A stretch of 64,000 nucleotides of DNA from Haloprofundus salilacus (GCF_020150815.1 NZ_CP083723.1:2542001-2606000), one strand, 5' to 3'. Numbered from the stretch's first letter, positions 2,568 to 39,842 are shown. Translations and numbers: made by a program. The notes: a model not told the origin generated them from the letters alone.

Positions 2568-3137
2568 GTGGCCGAGTCGCAGGACACCGGTCGCTTCGAG
2601 CGACACGAGGAGACGGGACGCCCCGCCCGAACGGCGGCGAACGTCGAGGAGACTACCGACCGACCGCTGCTCCGCGCCGGGGCGGTACTCGGCTTCGGTC
2701 TCGGGGGTCTCGTCGACGTGCTGATCTTTCATCTCGTGCTGCGGACGCACCACCTCATCTCGGGATGGGTACCGCCGACGACGCCGCAGGCGCTGCAGTT
2801 GAACCTCCTCGCGGATGGGGCGTTCTCGCTTCTGATGCTGGCTATCATGGCCGTCGGCTTCGGGATGCTCTGGAAGACGGCCGAGCGGCCGGAGGTGCCG
2901 TGGTCCGCCGGGCTGTACGCGGGGGCCGTCGTCGTCGGGATGGCGATATTCAACCTCTACGACGGCATCGTCGACCACTATATTCTGGAGATGCACCACG
3001 TGACACAGGGACTTCAGCCGGACGTGTTCGATCTCCTGTGGCTCGTCGGAAGCGTCGTCTTGCTGGTCGCGGGCCTGCTCGTTGTTCGCGCGGAGCGCAA
3101 GGAGGATGGGACGCCGCCGGGCGACGGGCAATTGTGA
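2568..3137 (+). CDS. DUF2243-type membrane protein
   Basis: The 189-residue product has a charged N-terminal 35 residues followed by four predicted membrane helices: LRAGAVLGFGLGGLVDVLIF, LLADGAFSLLMLAIMAVGF, SAGLYAGAVVVGMAIFNLY and VFDLLWLVGSVVLLVAGLLV. Conserved polar stretches between helices (HLVLRTHH, YDGIVDHYILEMHHV) contain several His residues and match what I know of DUF2243 proteins, whose function is undefined. I choose GTG 2568, just after the upstream stop, because an earlier in-frame ATG at 2448 would lie inside the acidic gene and add an Arg/Thr-rich, non-halophilic stretch. The His-rich loops could bind metal or haem; that is inference. Confidence 0.75.
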   Translation: MAESQDTGRFERHEETGRPARTAANVEETTDRPLLRAGAVLGFGLGGLVDVLIFHLVLRTHHLISGWVPPTTPQALQLNLLADGAFSLLMLAIMAVGFGMLWKTAERPEVPWSAGLYAGAVVVGMAIFNLYDGIVDHYILEMHHVTQGLQPDVFDLLWLVGSVVLLVAGLLVVRAERKEDGTPPGDGQL

Positions 3138-3145
3138 GCGTCGGA

Positions 3146-3352
3146 TTACTCTGCGTTCGTCTGTCGTCGGTTGCCACCGCCCGAATTCACGACAGCTATC
3201 GTGTCGATGAGAATCGCGAAGACGGCGATTGTTGCGCCGAGAATCACAATCAGTTCTCCGCGATACGCCCCTAAGTCGAGCAGTTGACGAGAGATACCGA
3301 ATGCGATGACGACGATACCAAATCTGTAGCCGTTTGCTTCGAGGGGACCCAT
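3146..3352 (-). CDS. Small two-helix membrane protein (68 aa)
   Basis: The product has two hydrophobic segments (FGIVVIAFGISRQLLDL and LIVILGATIAVFAILIDTIAVV) separated by the short charged loop GAYRGE, then a polar tail ending RRQTNAE. This is consistent with a hairpin integral membrane protein with both ends on the same side. It is convergent with the DUF2243-type gene (8 bp gap) and lies downstream of the catalase gene on the same strand, about 70 bp away. No family is recognised. Its base composition is slightly more AT-rich than its neighbours, which may indicate recent acquisition or relaxed selection. Confidence 0.55.
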   Translation of the reverse strand: MGPLEANGYRFGIVVIAFGISRQLLDLGAYRGELIVILGATIAVFAILIDTIAVVNSGGGNRRQTNAE

Positions 3353-3423
3353 CGGCTACGTCTGCAAATCGACACGATATCAAACTGCTGAAAAATGAGT
3401 CCGTCGCAGGCGAACGCTCGTCG

Positions 3424-4245
3424 CTATTCGCCGCTCGGCTTGTTGTACATCTCGTCGATGACTTCCTCGAGGTCGGGCATCCCGCCGCCGGGTTGCTCCG
3501 AGCGGAAGGAGAACTCGCCCTTCCCGTCGGGCGACTGCCCCTGCGTCCACCGCTGGTCGGGGTCCTCACGCTGCTCACGGAACGTGGACATGAAGTCGTA
3601 GTTCACGTCCTGGTTCTCCTTCTCCTGCGGGAAGCTCGCCGGCACCGGAATGTGGTCTTCCATCGTCTCGAGCGCCGCGTGCCACTGGTTCTGGTGCATC
3701 GTGTCGCGGGCGATGAGGTACGCGAGCATGTCCTTCATCCCCGGGTCGTCGGTCATCTCGTACAGCCGCGTCGCGAGCAGGCGGCCCGTCGACTCCGCCA
3801 TCACGTTGGCGTACATGTCGGCGGCAAGGTTGCCGGAGGCGACGACGTAGCCGCCATTGAACGGAACGCCGTTACTGTCGACCGGCATCGCGTGCAGGCC
3901 CGCCGAGAGCGCCTGCCGGGGCTGACCGCCGCTCATCATCGCGTCGATGACGGCGTCGTTCTCGCGCGCCTCCTCGCGCATGTGCTCGGGCGCGCCTTCG
4001 AGGTTCTTCGCCACCGCCGTCGCGAGCATCTCGATGTGCCCCAACTCTTCGGCGGCCGTCTCCATCAGCAGCGTTCGGTACTCCTGTTTGTCGGCGGGGA
4101 CGGCGAACGCCTGAAACATGTACTGCAGCGCGACGCGCATCTCTCCCTCCGCGCCGCCGATTGCCTGCTGGAGCATCTTCGCGAAGTACGGGTCCGGCTC
4201 TTCGACTTCGACTTCGTACTGGAGTTCGGGCTCGTGGTAGAACAC
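3424..4245 (-). CDS. Manganese (non-haem) catalase
   Basis: This is a di-manganese ferritin-like enzyme that dismutates hydrogen peroxide to water and oxygen in the cytosol. It begins at the family N-terminus FYHEPELQYEVEVEEPDP, and the ligand-bearing helices are visible: AIGGAEGEMRVALQYMFQAF, ETAAEELGHIEMLATAV with the Glu...His pair, a later MAESTGRL Glu, and ARDTMHQNQWHAALE. These supply the expected five carboxylate/His ligands. I favour the GTG at 4245, giving 273 residues, because homologues begin at this point; an ATG at 4290 would add 15 residues (MHKLPF...). It is divergent from the PIN/ATPase gene across a repeat-rich 246 bp gap and is probably induced under peroxide stress. Confidence 0.93.
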   Translation of the reverse strand: MFYHEPELQYEVEVEEPDPYFAKMLQQAIGGAEGEMRVALQYMFQAFAVPADKQEYRTLLMETAAEELGHIEMLATAVAKNLEGAPEHMREEARENDAVIDAMMSGGQPRQALSAGLHAMPVDSNGVPFNGGYVVASGNLAADMYANVMAESTGRLLATRLYEMTDDPGMKDMLAYLIARDTMHQNQWHAALETMEDHIPVPASFPQEKENQDVNYDFMSTFREQREDPDQRWTQGQSPDGKGEFSFRSEQPGGGMPDLEEVIDEMYNKPSGE

Positions 4246-4331
4246 ACGGTGTGGGCCACGAGCAGTGACAACAAACGGTAGCTTGTGCATTCAACACGGT
4301 TTGGACCTGAAATTCGCCGGACGCGAGCGGT

Positions 4332-4363
4332 CTCCGTACGGAGGCGAAGACGTGCTGCACGTC
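4332..4363. repeat. Two adjacent perfect palindromes upstream of the catalase gene
   Basis: Bases 4332-4343 (CTCCGTACGGAG) are a perfect 12 bp palindrome. Six bases later, 4349-4363 form a perfect inverted repeat with 7 bp arms (GACGTGC / GCACGTC) around a single T. Both lie in the divergent region between the Mn-catalase and the PIN/ATPase genes. They could be regulator operators or a hairpin pair; the sequence does not decide which. Confidence 0.6.
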
Positions 4364-4381
4364 GGAAAAACGACGAGGGCG

Positions 4382-4435
4382 ACGAACGCTGCGGGCGACG
4401 ACTGGACGAAAAACAACGAACGCTGCAGGCGACGA
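4382..4435 (+). repeat. 20 bp direct repeat, 34 bp period
   Basis: Bases 4382-4401 and 4416-4435 are the same 20-mer, ACGAACGCTGCnGGCGACGA, except for one base (19 of 20 identical). They lie 56 bp or more before the PIN/ATPase start. A 34 bp period is about three helical turns, so two regulator molecules could sit on the same face of the DNA. Confidence 0.6.
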
Positions 4436-4491
4436 TGCGGCGACGCCTGCCGCTTAAACACTCTTATGACGCTCCCGGACGGAGTGTGGAT

Positions 4492-6375
4492 ATGAACATC
4501 GTCCCGGACACGAGCGCGGTCATCGACGGCCGCGTGTCCGAACGAGTAGAGAGCGGGGCGTACGACGGCGTGACCGTCCTTGTCCCCGAGGCGGTGGTCG
4601 GCGAACTGGAGTCGCAGGCCAACGCCGGCTACGACAGCGGCTGGGAGGGTCTCGAAGAGTTGCAGAAACTCGCGACGTACGTCGACGAGGGCGTCATCGA
4701 GGTCGAGTTCGTCGGTCGTCGCCCCTCGGGGGACGAACAGAACGCCGCCCACGAGGGCGACGTCGACGCGCTCATCCGCGACCTCGCCGACGACTACGAC
4801 GCGACGCTTCTAACGAGCGACGTAGTGCAAGCCGAGGTCGGACGCGCGAAAGGAATCGAAGTCGAGTACGTCGAACCGCGCATCCGCGGCGGCGAGAGCC
4901 TCGCCATCGAGGAGTTTTTCGACGACGAGACGATGAGCGTCCACCTGAAGGCGGGGACGAAGCCGAAGGCCAAGCGCGGCGCGCTCAGCGATATGCACTA
5001 CGAGATCATCTCCGACGAGGTCTCCGACGAGGTGCAGATGAAAGAGTGGGCCGACGACATCGAACAGAGCGCCCGCTCCAGCAACCAGGGCTTCATCGAA
5101 CTGTCCGAACCGGGGATGAAGATCGTCCAGTTCCGCAACTACCGCATCGCCGTCGCCCGCCCGCCCTTCTCCGACGGCATCGAGATCACGGCGGTGCGAC
5201 CCATCGCGAAGACAAGCCTCGAAGATTACGAGTTCGTCAACGAACTGAAAGAGCGCCTGCTCGAACGCCAGCGCGGCGTCCTCATCTCCGGAGCGCCGGG
5301 TGCCGGGAAGTCGACGTTCGCGCAGGCCGTCGCGGAGTTCCTCAACAACAACGATTACGCGGTCAAGACGATGGAGAAACCGCGCGACCTGCAGGTCGGT
5401 CCCGAGATTACGCAGTACACCGCCCTCGGCGGGCAGATGGAGAAGACCGCCGACTCGCTCCTGCTCGTCCGCCCTGACTACACCATCTACGACGAGGTTC
5501 GGAAGACGAACGACTTCTCGGTGTTCGCGGACATGCGACTGGCGGGCGTCGGCATGGTCGGCGTCGTCCACGCGACGCGCGCTATCGACGCGCTCCAGCG
5601 CCTCATCGGCCGGGTCGAACTCGGCATGATTCCGCAGGTCGTCGACACCGTCGTCTACATCGAAGCCGGGCAGGTCCACACGGTGTACGACGTGACGACG
5701 CAGGTGAAAGTGCCCGAGGGGCTCACCGCCGAGGACCTCGCGCGCCCCGTCATTCAGGTGCGAAACTTCGAGACCGGTCGCCCCGAGTTCGAGATATACA
5801 CGTTCAACCGCCAGGTCGTCACCGTCCCGCTGGGCGAGGACGGCGGCAGCAACGAGTCGAGCGTCGGCCGAATCGCCAAACAGGAGATAGAGCGCGAGAT
5901 ACGCTCCATCGCCCGTGGTCACGTCGACGTCGAACTCAAAGGCCAGAACCGCGCGGCGGTGTACGTCGAGGAGGACGACATCTCCTACGTCATCGGGAAA
6001 GGCGGCGGCCGTATCACCGACATCGAGGAGCGACTCGGCATCGACATCGACGTGCGAACCCACGACGAGAACCCGAAGATGGGGTCGGCGGGAGGATCGG
6101 CAGGGTCGTCGGGAAACGGTAGCGGCGGCGCAGGCGGCCGGATCGGCGAACCCGAGGGCGAGGTGGTGACGCCCGAAATCACCTCGCGACACATCGTCGT
6201 CCGGATGGACGGCCACGTCGGCGAGACGGTCGAGGTCCGCGCTGGTGGCGAGTACCTGTTCACCGCGACGGTCGGCCGCGGCGGCGACATCCAAGTGTCG
6301 CGCGGCAGCGCCATCGCCGACGAACTGGAGAACGCCATCGACCGCAAAGAGCAGATCACTGTAGTCCCCGCATAA
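4492..6375 (+). CDS. PIN domain - PilT/VirB11-like ATPase - KH domain protein (COG1855 type)
   Basis: The 627-residue archaeal protein combines an N-terminal PIN nuclease fold (residues about 1-130; acidic PDTSAVIDGR and TLLTSDVVQAE), a secretion-type ATPase (Walker A GAPGAGKST near residue 267; YDEVRK and HATRAIDALQRL later) and a KH-like RNA-binding segment (YVIGKGGGRITDIEERLG near residue 505). A Gly/Ser-rich linker then leads to a C-terminal beta-rich domain. The order is that of the archaeal PINc/VapC-family ATPases, whose role is not established; RNA cleavage or processing is the usual guess. The ATG at 4492 gives the canonical MNIVPDTSAVIDGR start. The frame is open upstream but encodes Arg-rich, unlikely sequence. 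A TTAAA-like element lies 35-40 bp ahead. Confidence 0.93.
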   Translation: MNIVPDTSAVIDGRVSERVESGAYDGVTVLVPEAVVGELESQANAGYDSGWEGLEELQKLATYVDEGVIEVEFVGRRPSGDEQNAAHEGDVDALIRDLADDYDATLLTSDVVQAEVGRAKGIEVEYVEPRIRGGESLAIEEFFDDETMSVHLKAGTKPKAKRGALSDMHYEIISDEVSDEVQMKEWADDIEQSARSSNQGFIELSEPGMKIVQFRNYRIAVARPPFSDGIEITAVRPIAKTSLEDYEFVNELKERLLERQRGVLISGAPGAGKSTFAQAVAEFLNNNDYAVKTMEKPRDLQVGPEITQYTALGGQMEKTADSLLLVRPDYTIYDEVRKTNDFSVFADMRLAGVGMVGVVHATRAIDALQRLIGRVELGMIPQVVDTVVYIEAGQVHTVYDVTTQVKVPEGLTAEDLARPVIQVRNFETGRPEFEIYTFNRQVVTVPLGEDGGSNESSVGRIAKQEIEREIRSIARGHVDVELKGQNRAAVYVEEDDISYVIGKGGGRITDIEERLGIDIDVRTHDENPKMGSAGGSAGSSGNGSGGAGGRIGEPEGEVVTPEITSRHIVVRMDGHVGETVEVRAGGEYLFTATVGRGGDIQVSRGSAIADELENAIDRKEQITVVPA

Positions 6376-36809: not shown

Positions 36810-37487
36810 ATGCGTGTCGAGGGCCGGAGTCGCGGGGAGGAGGCGGTAGATCCCCTCCGAGGGGAGTTGATGCGTTTGAAAGAGCGAGGCTGCAACCTGC
36901 TGGTCACCGGTGCGGTGTCCGAGTCGGTGACCGCACGGGCGACGCAACGGCTCCTCGGTTCGCCGGTCGAAGAGCGAAAGCGACTGGTCACGCTCACGGA
37001 CACGCCGACGAGCGCTGTCGACTCCCGCCTCCCTATCGGCGTCTCCGCCGACGATGCGGACGTGAGGGTCATCGAGCGACAACGCGTCGAGCGGTCGGCA
37101 GCCGAGGCGGTGGAACGTGGGGATGGCGGCGGCGACGCCGAACTTCGGCGACTCGAAGGCGAAATCTCTCGCGCCATCGCTTCGCTGGACGACGGCAGCG
37201 GGTTCGGTCCGGCCGAACTTCGCCTCTCCGTCGACTCGATAGGCGCCCTCTTGGAGACGTACGACGCCCACCGGATCCGCGAGTTCCTTCAACGAGTCTG
37301 CGACACCGTCGAAGACAGCAACGGGATGGGTCATTACCACCTGCCGCTCTCCGACGACAGCCGGCGGGTTCAGCAGCTCGAAAGCGTGTTCGACGCCCGC
37401 ATCGAACTCCGACAGCGCGAACCGTTCGGTCCGGAGCAGCGGTGGCACGTGCCGGGGTACGGCACGACGGGGTGGATACAGATATGA
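36810..37487 (+). CDS. RecA-fold-like haloarchaeal protein (DUF7504-like), partner of the CHAT protein
   Basis: The 225-residue protein has no Walker A motif but shows an alternating strand/helix pattern like a degenerate RecA-type domain: LKERGCNLLVTGAVSESVTARATQRLLGSPVEERKRLVTLTDT, then a Cys-poor, acidic middle, SRAIASLDDGSGFGPAELRLSVDSIGALLETYDAHRIREFLQRVCDTVEDSNGMGHYHLPL, and a conserved C-terminal WHVPGYGTTGWIQI. I recall this architecture as a Halobacteria-specific family (DUF7504), function unknown. The gene ends 10 bp before the CHAT gene, so they form an operon. The NLLVTG strand and the following VTLTD segment resemble sensor proteins that report to proteases. Start ATG 36810. Confidence 0.75.
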   Translation: MRVEGRSRGEEAVDPLRGELMRLKERGCNLLVTGAVSESVTARATQRLLGSPVEERKRLVTLTDTPTSAVDSRLPIGVSADDADVRVIERQRVERSAAEAVERGDGGGDAELRRLEGEISRAIASLDDGSGFGPAELRLSVDSIGALLETYDAHRIREFLQRVCDTVEDSNGMGHYHLPLSDDSRRVQQLESVFDARIELRQREPFGPEQRWHVPGYGTTGWIQI

Positions 37488-37497
37488 GGGGATTCTC

Positions 37498-39618
37498 GTG
37501 ACCTCCCTCCACTGCGTCGAGTTGGCCGACCGGGACGGCGTCTGTCTCGTCGACGGCATCGAGAACGCCCGCTTCGAGTTGTACACGTCGGGTCCGGTCA
37601 CGGCCGCAGAGGCCGAGTCGTCGGCCTTTTATTTCCCGGTCGATTTTGCCGTCGAACTCCGCACGTCGTCGCTGAAGCTGCCGAAACTGACCGGCGCTAT
37701 CGTCCGCGGACAGGACGGTCGAACCCTCACGCAGTCGATGAACCGCCGAGGCGTCGACCTCGACGTCGGCGCGTACGACATCGAAGTGACGACGGCACCG
37801 ATGAAGCTGTTCGTCGTCGTCGACGCCGCCGTCTCGATACGCTACGGCGAGCGGAGTACGACCTTCGAGTTCGGCGAACCAACGCGGGTCTCCGTCGGCG
37901 CGCGGTCGTTCCACGAGCGGCCGGCGGGAACCGTCGTGACGCCCGACGACCCGGAATCGACGATGCGCGCCATCTCGTTTCTGGGGTCGGCGTTGAAGAC
38001 GACGACGCCCGAACGGTCGTTTCCGACGCTTCGGGGACACCCGCCACTCGTCGAACGCGGCGAGACGTTCGACGCGCCCGACCACCTCCGGACGCCGGAG
38101 ACGGGCGTAACGCTGGTGCTGCCGCCCGAGCGCACGGCGGTGTACGCCAGCGCGCCGCTGGCGTACTACCTCGGCGCGACAGTCGTTCCGGGGTCGGAGG
38201 CGCGACTCGAACTCGCCGGGTGGGAGTTCCCGCTCGCCCCCGGCGGCGACGTGGAGCGCGGACTGGGTCAGACGCTCAGACAGGTGTTCTTCCTCGACTG
38301 TCTCACGCGCACGGAGGGGTACTATCCGGTCGACCTCCACGAGCGCCACGCGGTCGAGACGGCGTTCGACGTGGCGTTCGAGGCGCTGTACGAGTTGCCG
38401 CTGGACGAGCAACTCGCCGAGTACCTCTCGATGCCGTTCGGAGATCTCGAACCGCATCTCCCGGCGTGGAACCTCACGACCGACGTTCGACCGACGCAGG
38501 AGAATGTCGAGATGCTCCCGTTCGTTGCCAACGACCTCTCGCTGGTGCGCTGTCCCGACCGACTGTCGCTCACCCCGCCGGAGCCAGAACCGAAGGCGGT
38601 AACAGATTTCTTCCGTCAGAGTACTCGGGGGCCCGCAGCGGGAGAGACGGACGACACGTTCGTCCGCGGTGCGTCCGAGGCCGGGGAAGGAGAAGAGATA
38701 GTCCACCCGCGGCCCGCAGAGACGGTCGAACACGCGTGGGTCGGCGAGGGGTTCCCGCTGGGGGCGAGCAAAGCGACGGCGGCGTCGTACCGCCGCCGCC
38801 TCGAACGCGACGTCGCCGACCGGACGAGCATCGACATCACCGTCGTCTGCAACGACGAACAGATGCGCGAGGAAGGCGTCGTCGCCGAACTGTACGGACT
38901 CCGTGATCTGCTGCAGTTCGAAATCGACATCCGGTACGACCTGACCTGCGAGGAGTTGGCCGCCCTGCTCTCGCGTCCGACGAACTTCCTTCACTACGTC
39001 GGCCACGTCGACCGCCGCGGGATGCAGTGCGCCGACGGCTTCCTCGACGCGCGGGAACTCGACGACGTGGCCGTCGAGTCGTTCCTGCTCAACGCTTGCA
39101 GTTCGTACAAACAGGGCGAGGCGCTCGTCGAACGCGGAAGCTACGGGGGCGTCGTGACGCTCTCGGACGTGGCGAACACGACGGCGACGAAGTTAGGACA
39201 GACGCTTGCCCGACTGCTGAACTGCGGATTCACCCTCCGTTCGGCGCTGACGATCGCGCAGCAGGAAGTGTTCACCGCGAATCGGTACATCGTACTCGGC
39301 GACGGCGGGTTGTCGCTGTGTCAGAACGAGAGCGGTGTGCCCGGAGTCTTACAGATAGAACCGTGCGGAGAGAACACGTTCGAAATTGAACTTGAGTACT
39401 ACCCTGTGAAGTCTTACGACTTGGGGAGTTTGGTTAAACCGCTCTTGGACGCTGTGGACCGCCATCACTTAGCGACGGGAACAGTCGGAAAGTTCGAGAT
39501 AGGTGCCGAGGAACTGAAGAACTTCCTCGAGTTGGAACGGGCACCCGTGAAAATCGGTGGGTCCCTGCAGTGGAGTGACGAACTCAGCGTTGAGTTTCCG
39601 GGTAACTTCGGTCTGTAA
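37498..39618 (+). CDS. CHAT-type caspase-like protease domain protein
   Basis: The 706-residue protein is acidic. Residues 1-400 have no family I recognise but contain beta-rich segments. Residues 440-600 match the CHAT (caspase HetF-associated) fold: strand DITVVC, RPTNFLHYVGH with catalytic His503, then VESFLLNACSSYKQGEALVERG with nucleophile Cys534, VVTLSDVANTTATKLGQTLARLL and the helix RSALTIAQQEV. The His-Cys spacing of 31 residues is normal for the fold. A C-terminal beta domain (CGENTFEIELEYYPVKSYDLG) follows. The start GTG 37498 comes 10 bp after the RecA-like gene. A convergent small peptide gene abuts the stop codon. Function is inferred as a regulated endopeptidase. Confidence 0.75.
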   Translation: MTSLHCVELADRDGVCLVDGIENARFELYTSGPVTAAEAESSAFYFPVDFAVELRTSSLKLPKLTGAIVRGQDGRTLTQSMNRRGVDLDVGAYDIEVTTAPMKLFVVVDAAVSIRYGERSTTFEFGEPTRVSVGARSFHERPAGTVVTPDDPESTMRAISFLGSALKTTTPERSFPTLRGHPPLVERGETFDAPDHLRTPETGVTLVLPPERTAVYASAPLAYYLGATVVPGSEARLELAGWEFPLAPGGDVERGLGQTLRQVFFLDCLTRTEGYYPVDLHERHAVETAFDVAFEALYELPLDEQLAEYLSMPFGDLEPHLPAWNLTTDVRPTQENVEMLPFVANDLSLVRCPDRLSLTPPEPEPKAVTDFFRQSTRGPAAGETDDTFVRGASEAGEGEEIVHPRPAETVEHAWVGEGFPLGASKATAASYRRRLERDVADRTSIDITVVCNDEQMREEGVVAELYGLRDLLQFEIDIRYDLTCEELAALLSRPTNFLHYVGHVDRRGMQCADGFLDARELDDVAVESFLLNACSSYKQGEALVERGSYGGVVTLSDVANTTATKLGQTLARLLNCGFTLRSALTIAQQEVFTANRYIVLGDGGLSLCQNESGVPGVLQIEPCGENTFEIELEYYPVKSYDLGSLVKPLLDAVDRHHLATGTVGKFEIGAEELKNFLELERAPVKIGGSLQWSDELSVEFPGNFGL

Positions 39619-39753
39619 TTACGGACCGTTGGTACAGAACGCGTTGTTCGCCGCCACGGTCCCCGCCTGCGACAGCAGGAGCATCATCGTGAACAGGACG
39701 CCGATCATTCGTGGGTGGTCGCGCAGGTAATTTGCGATTGGTTGTTCGCTCAT
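39619..39753 (-). CDS. DUF7503-like 44-residue single-helix peptide with Cys tail
   Basis: The reverse frame encodes MSEQPIANYLRDHPRM, a helix IGVLFTMMLLLSQAGTVAA and a tail NNAFCTNGP ending with a stop that abuts the CHAT stop codon. The segment pattern fits a small haloarchaeal family I recall as DUF7503. A basic N-terminus before the helix and a possible signal-peptidase-like AxA region (VAA) suggest membrane insertion or export, leaving a Cys-containing tail outside. Its start is preceded (39754-39842) by AT-rich DNA (TTTAATTAACTAAAATAATC and TATAAATATA), well suited for a strong promoter. It is likely to be functionally tied to the CHAT pair. Confidence 0.65.
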   Translation of the reverse strand: MSEQPIANYLRDHPRMIGVLFTMMLLLSQAGTVAANNAFCTNGP

Positions 39754-39842
39754 GTACATCAACCACAATTCGGGATGGAGAAATTTAATTAACTAAAATA
39801 ATCTTATAAATATATAGTGCTAAAAACCACGACACTTCTCGC
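39754..39842. promoter_or_regulatory. AT-rich divergent promoter region
   Basis: This 89 bp gap is far richer in A/T than the rest of the window and carries TTTAATTAAC, AAAATAATC and TTATAAATATAT tracts. It can serve TATA boxes for both the small peptide gene (minus) and the MFS gene (plus), whose start is GTG 39843. Confidence 0.55.

Follow-up and report, generated by a model that had tools for sequence, protein, structure and literature searches.

In the agr systems of the Bacillota, one contiguous polymorphic stretch takes in the signal gene together with the part of its partner that recognises the signal. RRNPP and Rgg–SHP systems use a short precursor with a signal-peptide-like start and an active C-terminal stretch, which is read by an adjacent intracellular protein, in some cases with shp and rgg in convergent orientation. 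In bacterial gasdermin–protease pairs, a caspase-like protease adjoins a membrane-active partner; proteases cut gasdermins, and Csx29 cuts Csx30. In ComQXPA, the shared polymorphism takes in comQ and comX and runs into the 5′ end of comP (PMC6334282). Here we compare these systems with a locus of Haloprofundus salilacus, contained in a window of 64,000 nucleotides (GCF_020150815.1, NZ_CP083723.1:2542001–2606000; positions are counted from its first nucleotide). A gene for a CHAT-like protein of clade A and predicted caspase/separase fold (706 residues, GTG start; 37498–39618, + strand) meets, stop codon against stop codon, a gene for a 44-residue DUF7503 peptide (39619–39753, − strand). One contiguous hypervariable cassette of low guanine-plus-cytosine (GC) content encodes the final ~90 residues of the CHAT protein and the final ~8 of the peptide; it lies between conserved cores and spans both stop codons (39319–39648, assigned to neither strand). 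Judged from sequence, the chances are about even that the two products form a polymorphic cognate pair of peptide ligand and protease receptor, following a logic like that of agr or ComX/ComP with the CHAT protein as the reader.

The likeness to ComQXPA and agr lies in the contiguous polymorphic stretch, which here too spans the end of the candidate signal and the predicted recognition domain of the partner protein. Contiguous hypervariability between conserved flanks and covariation of alleles are both present, although the latter could also be given by linkage. The locus differs in being archaeal, in having as reader a predicted cysteine protease where those systems have a histidine kinase, in the absence of a modifying enzyme and in its tail-to-tail gene order. 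Membership of the ComQXPA/agr or Rgg/RRNPP classes was considered and rejected, since the partner is a CHAT protein and not a homologous receptor; the locus is at most an analogue. It shares with RRNPP and Rgg–SHP systems the signal-peptide-like start of the precursor and a variable C-terminal stretch beside the reader gene, but its reader is of neither the TPR nor the HTH type, the Gly-Pro end of the peptide is conserved, and re-import is hypothetical. SAVED-CHAT (8tl0), the TPR-CHAT protein Csx29 of Craspase and separase are alike in fold, in His/Cys motifs and in that the protease gene is accompanied by a conserved partner. They differ in that no CRISPR, TPR, SAVED or NLR part is seen here, and in that the protein of this locus has an all-β N-terminal region, a hypervariable C-terminal domain and, as its partner, a convergent gene for a 44-residue peptide. 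In gasdermin–protease pairs, as here, a caspase-like protease adjoins a membrane-active candidate; the candidate at this locus, however, is a single-helix DUF7503 peptide of 44 residues with no gasdermin fold and no defence context.

The cassette across the stop codons

A preliminary description of this window, made from its sequence, had proposed a module of three genes, the third encoding a DUF7504-like protein. The three genes were recovered in the positions and frames it gave, and the stop codons abut at 39618/39619 as described, the CHAT TAA occupying 39616–39618 and the peptide TTA 39619–39621. It had further held that the module would fall if no conserved neighbourhood were seen in other genomes. 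Thirty-one haloarchaeal genomes were searched for all three families; the 38 DUF7503 genes in them are all convergent with a CHAT match, on the other strand and at most 276 nt from its 3′ end. This result favours the module and identifies the peptide as a dedicated, convergently encoded partner. A peptide gene stands beside 37 of 43 clade-A CHAT genes and beside none of the 36 other CHAT genes, and DUF7503 occurs in none of the searched genomes without CHAT. The stop-to-stop spacing is at most 2 nt in 62 of 87 CHAT–peptide pairs, 27 of these having a 4-nt overlap. Of 146 genomes sampled from the order, 129 have CHAT relatives, frequently several each. DUF7503 was matched in 66 of 393 genomes from the phylum, and the matches listed all belong to that order. 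The Haloferax volcanii control genome gave matches to DUF7503 and DUF7504. One locus (L050, G056:C1:486534–486796) has a single CHAT gene with two tandem peptide genes 3′ of it, whose tails are identical.

DNA identity between the window and its congeners is 0.80–0.95, drops to 0.53–0.77 at about 39360–39660 and then returns to 0.80–0.93. In close Halorubrum pairs, it is ~0.95 in the CHAT core and ~0.5 across the final ~270 nt of that gene, and rises again to 1.0 within the peptide core; the mean identities in this genus are 0.83 for the CHAT core, 0.38 for the C-terminal domain, 0.91 for the peptide core and 0.35 for the tail. Identity and GC content were compared over 151 CHAT–peptide loci. 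The C-terminal domain has a mean identity of 0.44–0.48 in pairs whose CHAT cores are 0.89–0.97 identical and, with all groups taken together, of 0.48 at core identities of 0.89–0.93. At every one of the 151 loci, the CHAT C-terminal region is poorer in GC than the core (0.51 versus 0.66, and 0.59 versus 0.85 at third positions); the corresponding values in the window are 0.53 and 0.67. As controls, we used a genus with 29 genomes. Here the domain of the peptide-less clade B is 0.86 identical at core identities of 0.89–0.93, and at the clade-A locus both the domain (0.85) and the tail (0.83) are conserved. The domain is therefore not variable by nature, and a stable domain goes with a stable tail.

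These comparisons bear on the possibility that the block is a by-product of a recombination hotspot, or of a relaxed C-terminus, at the convergent junction and has no function in recognition. Synonymous (pS) and non-synonymous (pN) divergence are both raised in it, the last ~80 CHAT codons in Halorubrum having a pS of 0.81 and a pN of 0.46, where most of the other codons have ~0.35 and ~0.1; the low GC content and the physical adjacency of tail and domain are also consistent with such an origin. However, no block is found in the peptide-less clade B, which has the same domain, or in the genus with the conserved tail. Moreover, the block ends sharply within the peptide gene, the final Gly-Pro still being conserved, and AlphaFold predicts residues ~616–692 of the CHAT protein to be a separate and well-folded α/β domain, with a predicted local distance difference test (pLDDT) score of ~95. 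We regard a by-product as improbable, and as the least probable of the explanations weighed here.

Covariation of tail and domain

The variable tail of the window peptide, NNAFCTNGP with the conserved GP end (39622–39648, − strand), is a predicted specificity determinant, and the hypervariable C-terminal domain of the CHAT protein (residues 608–706; 39319–39618, + strand) is the predicted recognition domain. Their covariation was analysed in 11 groups of close relatives, which gave 365 pairs. At domain identities of 65% or more the tails are 0.82 identical, and at domain identities under 50% they are 0.41 identical, core identity being similar in the two cases (0.89 and 0.86). When tails were permuted within groups, the observed association was reached in 0 of 5000 permutations, and in 0 of 5000 also when partial on core identity; with the largest group left out, p was 0.0006, and 0.0008 after correction for the core. 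The window (L001) and locus L004 have the same tail, a domain identity of 0.75 and a core identity of 0.89. The cores of L004 and L005 are closer (0.94), yet their tails differ and their domains are 0.56 identical. Tail sharing between nearest-domain partners in Halorubrum exceeds the expectation (0.64 against 0.44). In this genus, tails that start with NQ have one domain type, as do tails with Q three residues past the conserved N, the latter also across backbones.

From these data the CHAT C-terminal domain most likely has the tail as its ligand, with the protease as the output. The peptide would be produced as a membrane-targeted precursor whose short variable tail, ending in Gly-Pro, serves as the ligand; the C-terminal domain would be a receptor specific to the tail of the same allele, and binding would switch the protease. 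The peptide may act from outside once processed, as a partner tethered in the membrane, or additionally as a substrate. Where the KaiC-like DUF7504 protein is present, it might act as a docking or switching partner. The two genes would lie stop against stop because both C-termini carry matched specificity, if indeed they do, and are exchanged jointly by recombination: crossovers in the conserved flanks would move both determinants as a unit, keeping the pair matched and the convergent order in place. Paralogous pairs within one genome could then operate as separate, insulated channels. The cassette did not form part of the preliminary description, and it points to specific recognition between the CHAT protein and the peptide, away from the generic scheme of sensor, protease and pore. 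More tentatively, and at rather less than an even chance, we propose that the locus represents a new kind of haloarchaeal peptide communication or self-recognition, in which a caspase/separase-fold protease has a hypervariable C-terminal domain as receptor for the cognate tail, coding is tail to tail and specificities are exchanged as one cassette.

Several observations weigh against a ligand–receptor pair. Over all Halorubrum pairs, tail and C-terminal domain gave no significant association in a plain Mantel test, probably owing to saturation of most pairs, and the nearest-neighbour and within-clade permutation tests were chosen after this result had been seen. Tail–domain covariation across all distant pairs is near zero. 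Tail and domain are contiguous DNA, and linkage after block recombination is expected to give covariation, so that contact is not proven by it. The tail is predicted to lie outside the cell (N-in, C-out) and the CHAT protein in the cytoplasm; contact would need re-import or another topology. Finally, the diversity was observed between species.

The CHAT protein and the peptide

The window CHAT protein scores 16.8 bits against PF12770, for which the cut-off is 24, and its domain alone 20.7 bits, also below the cut-off; the profile is matched by 39 of 71 CHAT homologues, with a best E value of 1.7e-9. The AlphaFold model, calculated from an alignment of 90 sequences, has a pLDDT of 90.8 and a predicted template modelling (pTM) score of 0.91. 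Foldseek comparison with the PDB matched it to separase (1e-7), gingipain R (2e-7), SAVED-CHAT (6e-6) and the TPR-CHAT protein of Craspase (1e-4), and also to caspases. The predicted catalytic residues are those named in the preliminary description: His503 in the HYIGH motif (39004–39006, + strand) and Cys534 in the LNAC motif (39097–39099, + strand). Both are invariant in 71 aligned CHAT proteins of clades A and B, and the family profile aligns HYIGH and LNAC with the LHFIGH and LNAC motifs of SAVED-CHAT 8tl0. That description would have been contradicted by a model in which these residues did not come together in a caspase-like fold; in the predicted structure, which is caspase/separase-like, a strand at 495–501 is followed by His503 and a strand at 526–532 by Cys534, in the order found in caspases. 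We conclude that the protein is, by this model, of the caspase/separase fold with an intact dyad and is a predicted cysteine protease. Residues 1–140 are predicted to be all-β and the middle part α/β; the long alignment with gingipain suggests that the latter may be a second, inactive caspase-like lobe. The protein has no hydrophobic segment of transmembrane strength and no evident signal peptide.

The peptide (MSEQPIANYLRDHPRMIGVLFTMMLLLSQAGTVAANNAFCTNGP) matches PF24335 with an E value of 8e-23, in agreement with its earlier assignment as a small DUF7503-like peptide. In the layout of the 157 peptides collected, a conserved N-terminal part leads to [HN]P[RK] and a hydrophobic stretch, after which come a site of small residues, the short variable tail and Gly-Pro-COOH. 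H/N-P is present in all 157, a Phe in 156, and a Gly and the C-terminal GP in 150 each; R/K stands directly ahead of the hydrophobic stretch in 151. The peptides have a hydrophobic core, an N-in charge pattern and, in nearly all, small residues at −3 and −1, as in the −3,−1 rule for signal peptides, from which we infer a membrane-targeted precursor with an A-x-A site that may be exported and processed. A Cys tail, described earlier as a feature of the peptide, does not hold up: a minority of the 157 tails contain Cys, at varying positions, and it is Gly-Pro-COOH that is conserved. A minority of peptides have a TID, TIV or TIG end in place of GP (L119, L123, L065, L136, L207, L075 and L103). 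In Halorubrum, pN is 0.43 and pS 0.80 in the tail, against 0.03–0.08 and 0.22–0.29 in the core; a second calculation gave a pN of 0.44 for the tail, 0.05 for the core and 0.01 for the terminal PGP. The peptide-core pS is lower than that of the CHAT core (~0.35), possibly reflecting constraint at the nucleotide level.

The conserved parts of the peptide suggest a second explanation, in which it is a dedicated substrate: a triggered CHAT protease would cut it at the juxtamembrane [HN]P[RK] or in the tail, freeing a membrane-active or signalling fragment, and the C-terminal domain would be a docking site only. A neighbouring dedicated substrate is known for another CHAT protease (PMC10028731), the dyad is intact in all peptide-bearing CHAT proteins, and the [HN]P is invariant with the basic residue just before the hydrophobic stretch. 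The basic residue is, however, also expected from the positive-inside rule, and clade B retains the dyad without any peptide. In the full set, the peptide core covaries most with CHAT residues 561–620, beside the active site; in the non-redundant set this weakens to a z score of about 1.7, and we keep this coevolution as a lead only. By itself, cleavage gives no account of why the last residues alone vary with the C-terminal domain, and we consider a simple protease–substrate pair unlikely.

The matched polymorphic pair and its exchangeable low-GC specificity cassette would also be compatible with toxin and immunity, or self-inhibition, in which a harmful CHAT protein is restrained by its own peptide, acting as a membrane tether or as a securin-like pseudo-substrate inhibitor, and the polymorphism distinguishes self from non-self cells or viruses. 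Separase is the closest fold, and several paralogues occur per genome. On the other hand, some clade-A CHAT proteins have no recognisable peptide, and there is no defence-gene context, no PADLOC match and no occurrence in viruses; this arrangement thus seems rather improbable. Regulated cell death and phage defence, which the preliminary description had raised, find no support, and phage defence and a viral origin were rejected. The window proteins have no useful match in PADLOC or NCBIfam, no homologues were found in viral contigs or phages, and no defence context is seen in the window, where the neighbours, read from translations, are metabolic or transport genes.

The region 5′ of the peptide gene (39754–39840, − strand) is AT-rich, with a GC content of 0.299, and positions 39778–39837 are 0.82–0.90 identical to those of congeners. 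It is likely to hold a leaderless-type promoter of the peptide gene's own; with this upstream region and its position on the opposite strand, the gene would therefore be transcribed separately from the CHAT gene. In Halorubrum (L161–L197), the conserved blocks TTCAAATATC and ACCGCAnAACAATCT and a TATA-like element ~25 nt before the ATG lie 5′ of the peptide gene, which suggests that it is regulated and leaderless.

DUF7504, related clades and haloarchaeal biology

The DUF7504 protein (225 residues; 36810–37487, + strand; PF24336, E 3e-51) is encoded by a gene ending 10 nt 5′ of the CHAT gene. Its AlphaFold model has a pLDDT of 92.4, and Foldseek matches it to KaiC and FlaH (ArlH/FlaH) at E values of ~2e-8, in keeping with its earlier description as RecA-like. 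The absence of a Walker A motif, also reported before, extends to the family, GxxxxGK[ST] being found in 0 of 43 homologues. We predict a KaiC/ArlH-like fold of the RecA superfamily that is not an ATPase; the fold is common to KaiC-like ATPases and ArlH, from which DUF7504 differs in having no P-loop and a single domain of 225 residues. Of the 43 clade-A CHAT genes, 23 have a DUF7504 gene at a distance of 1 kb or less (0.4 expected), as against 0 of 36 others; it lies mostly on the same strand upstream of the CHAT gene, or beyond the peptide gene. Thus, of the proposed three-gene module, the pairing of CHAT and peptide stands, but an obligatory triad does not.

Some clade-A CHAT genes have no recognisable peptide (L081, L087, L088, L089, L064, L110, L134 and L143), several of them with DUF7504 upstream; a loose-motif search of small open reading frames near the peptide-less clade-A genes gave nothing convincing. 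In one genus, clade-A CHAT genes are apparently split by frameshifts or stops, as in recurrent decay (G493:C1:1112674–1114709, G488:C3:3361161–3363196 and G475:C2:959738–961682). Clade B, with an intact dyad but no peptide, is fixed in synteny between glyA, read from translation, and tbsP. Its loci, with HYIGHC and FFLNACGS motifs, occur across haloarchaea (L090 at 2983–5094, C1:920120–922027 in its own genome; L091–L096, L100 and L101). In a third clade, of pseudo-CHAT proteins without a peptide, neither catalytic residue is left, and dyad loss is confined to this clade. CHAT-like pseudo-proteases lacking the His and Cys, and likewise a peptide (L098, L099 and L097), form tandem arrays in one genome, G087, which has 14 CHAT matches. 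Plasmid-borne CHAT genes of this family are mostly annotated as hypothetical proteins.

Our literature search found no paper naming DUF7503 or DUF7504 or joining the CHAT domain with haloarchaea or Haloferax. Three earlier cases of archaeal quorum sensing have been counted, two with unknown signals, and the quorum signal of Haloferax volcanii resists proteinase K (PMC12240190); it is therefore probably not a DUF7503 peptide. The same organism has strong caspase-like activity to which no gene is assigned (PMC3615174). The CHAT family, with its wide occurrence in the order (129 of 146 sampled genomes), offers deletable candidates for this orphan activity, and clade B, which looks like a housekeeping caspase-like protease, is a further one. 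The biology of the peptide-bearing loci is likely to be allele-specific peptide signalling or self-recognition, and since the variable tails define exact nonapeptides for synthesis, the specificity of receptor and ligand is directly testable.

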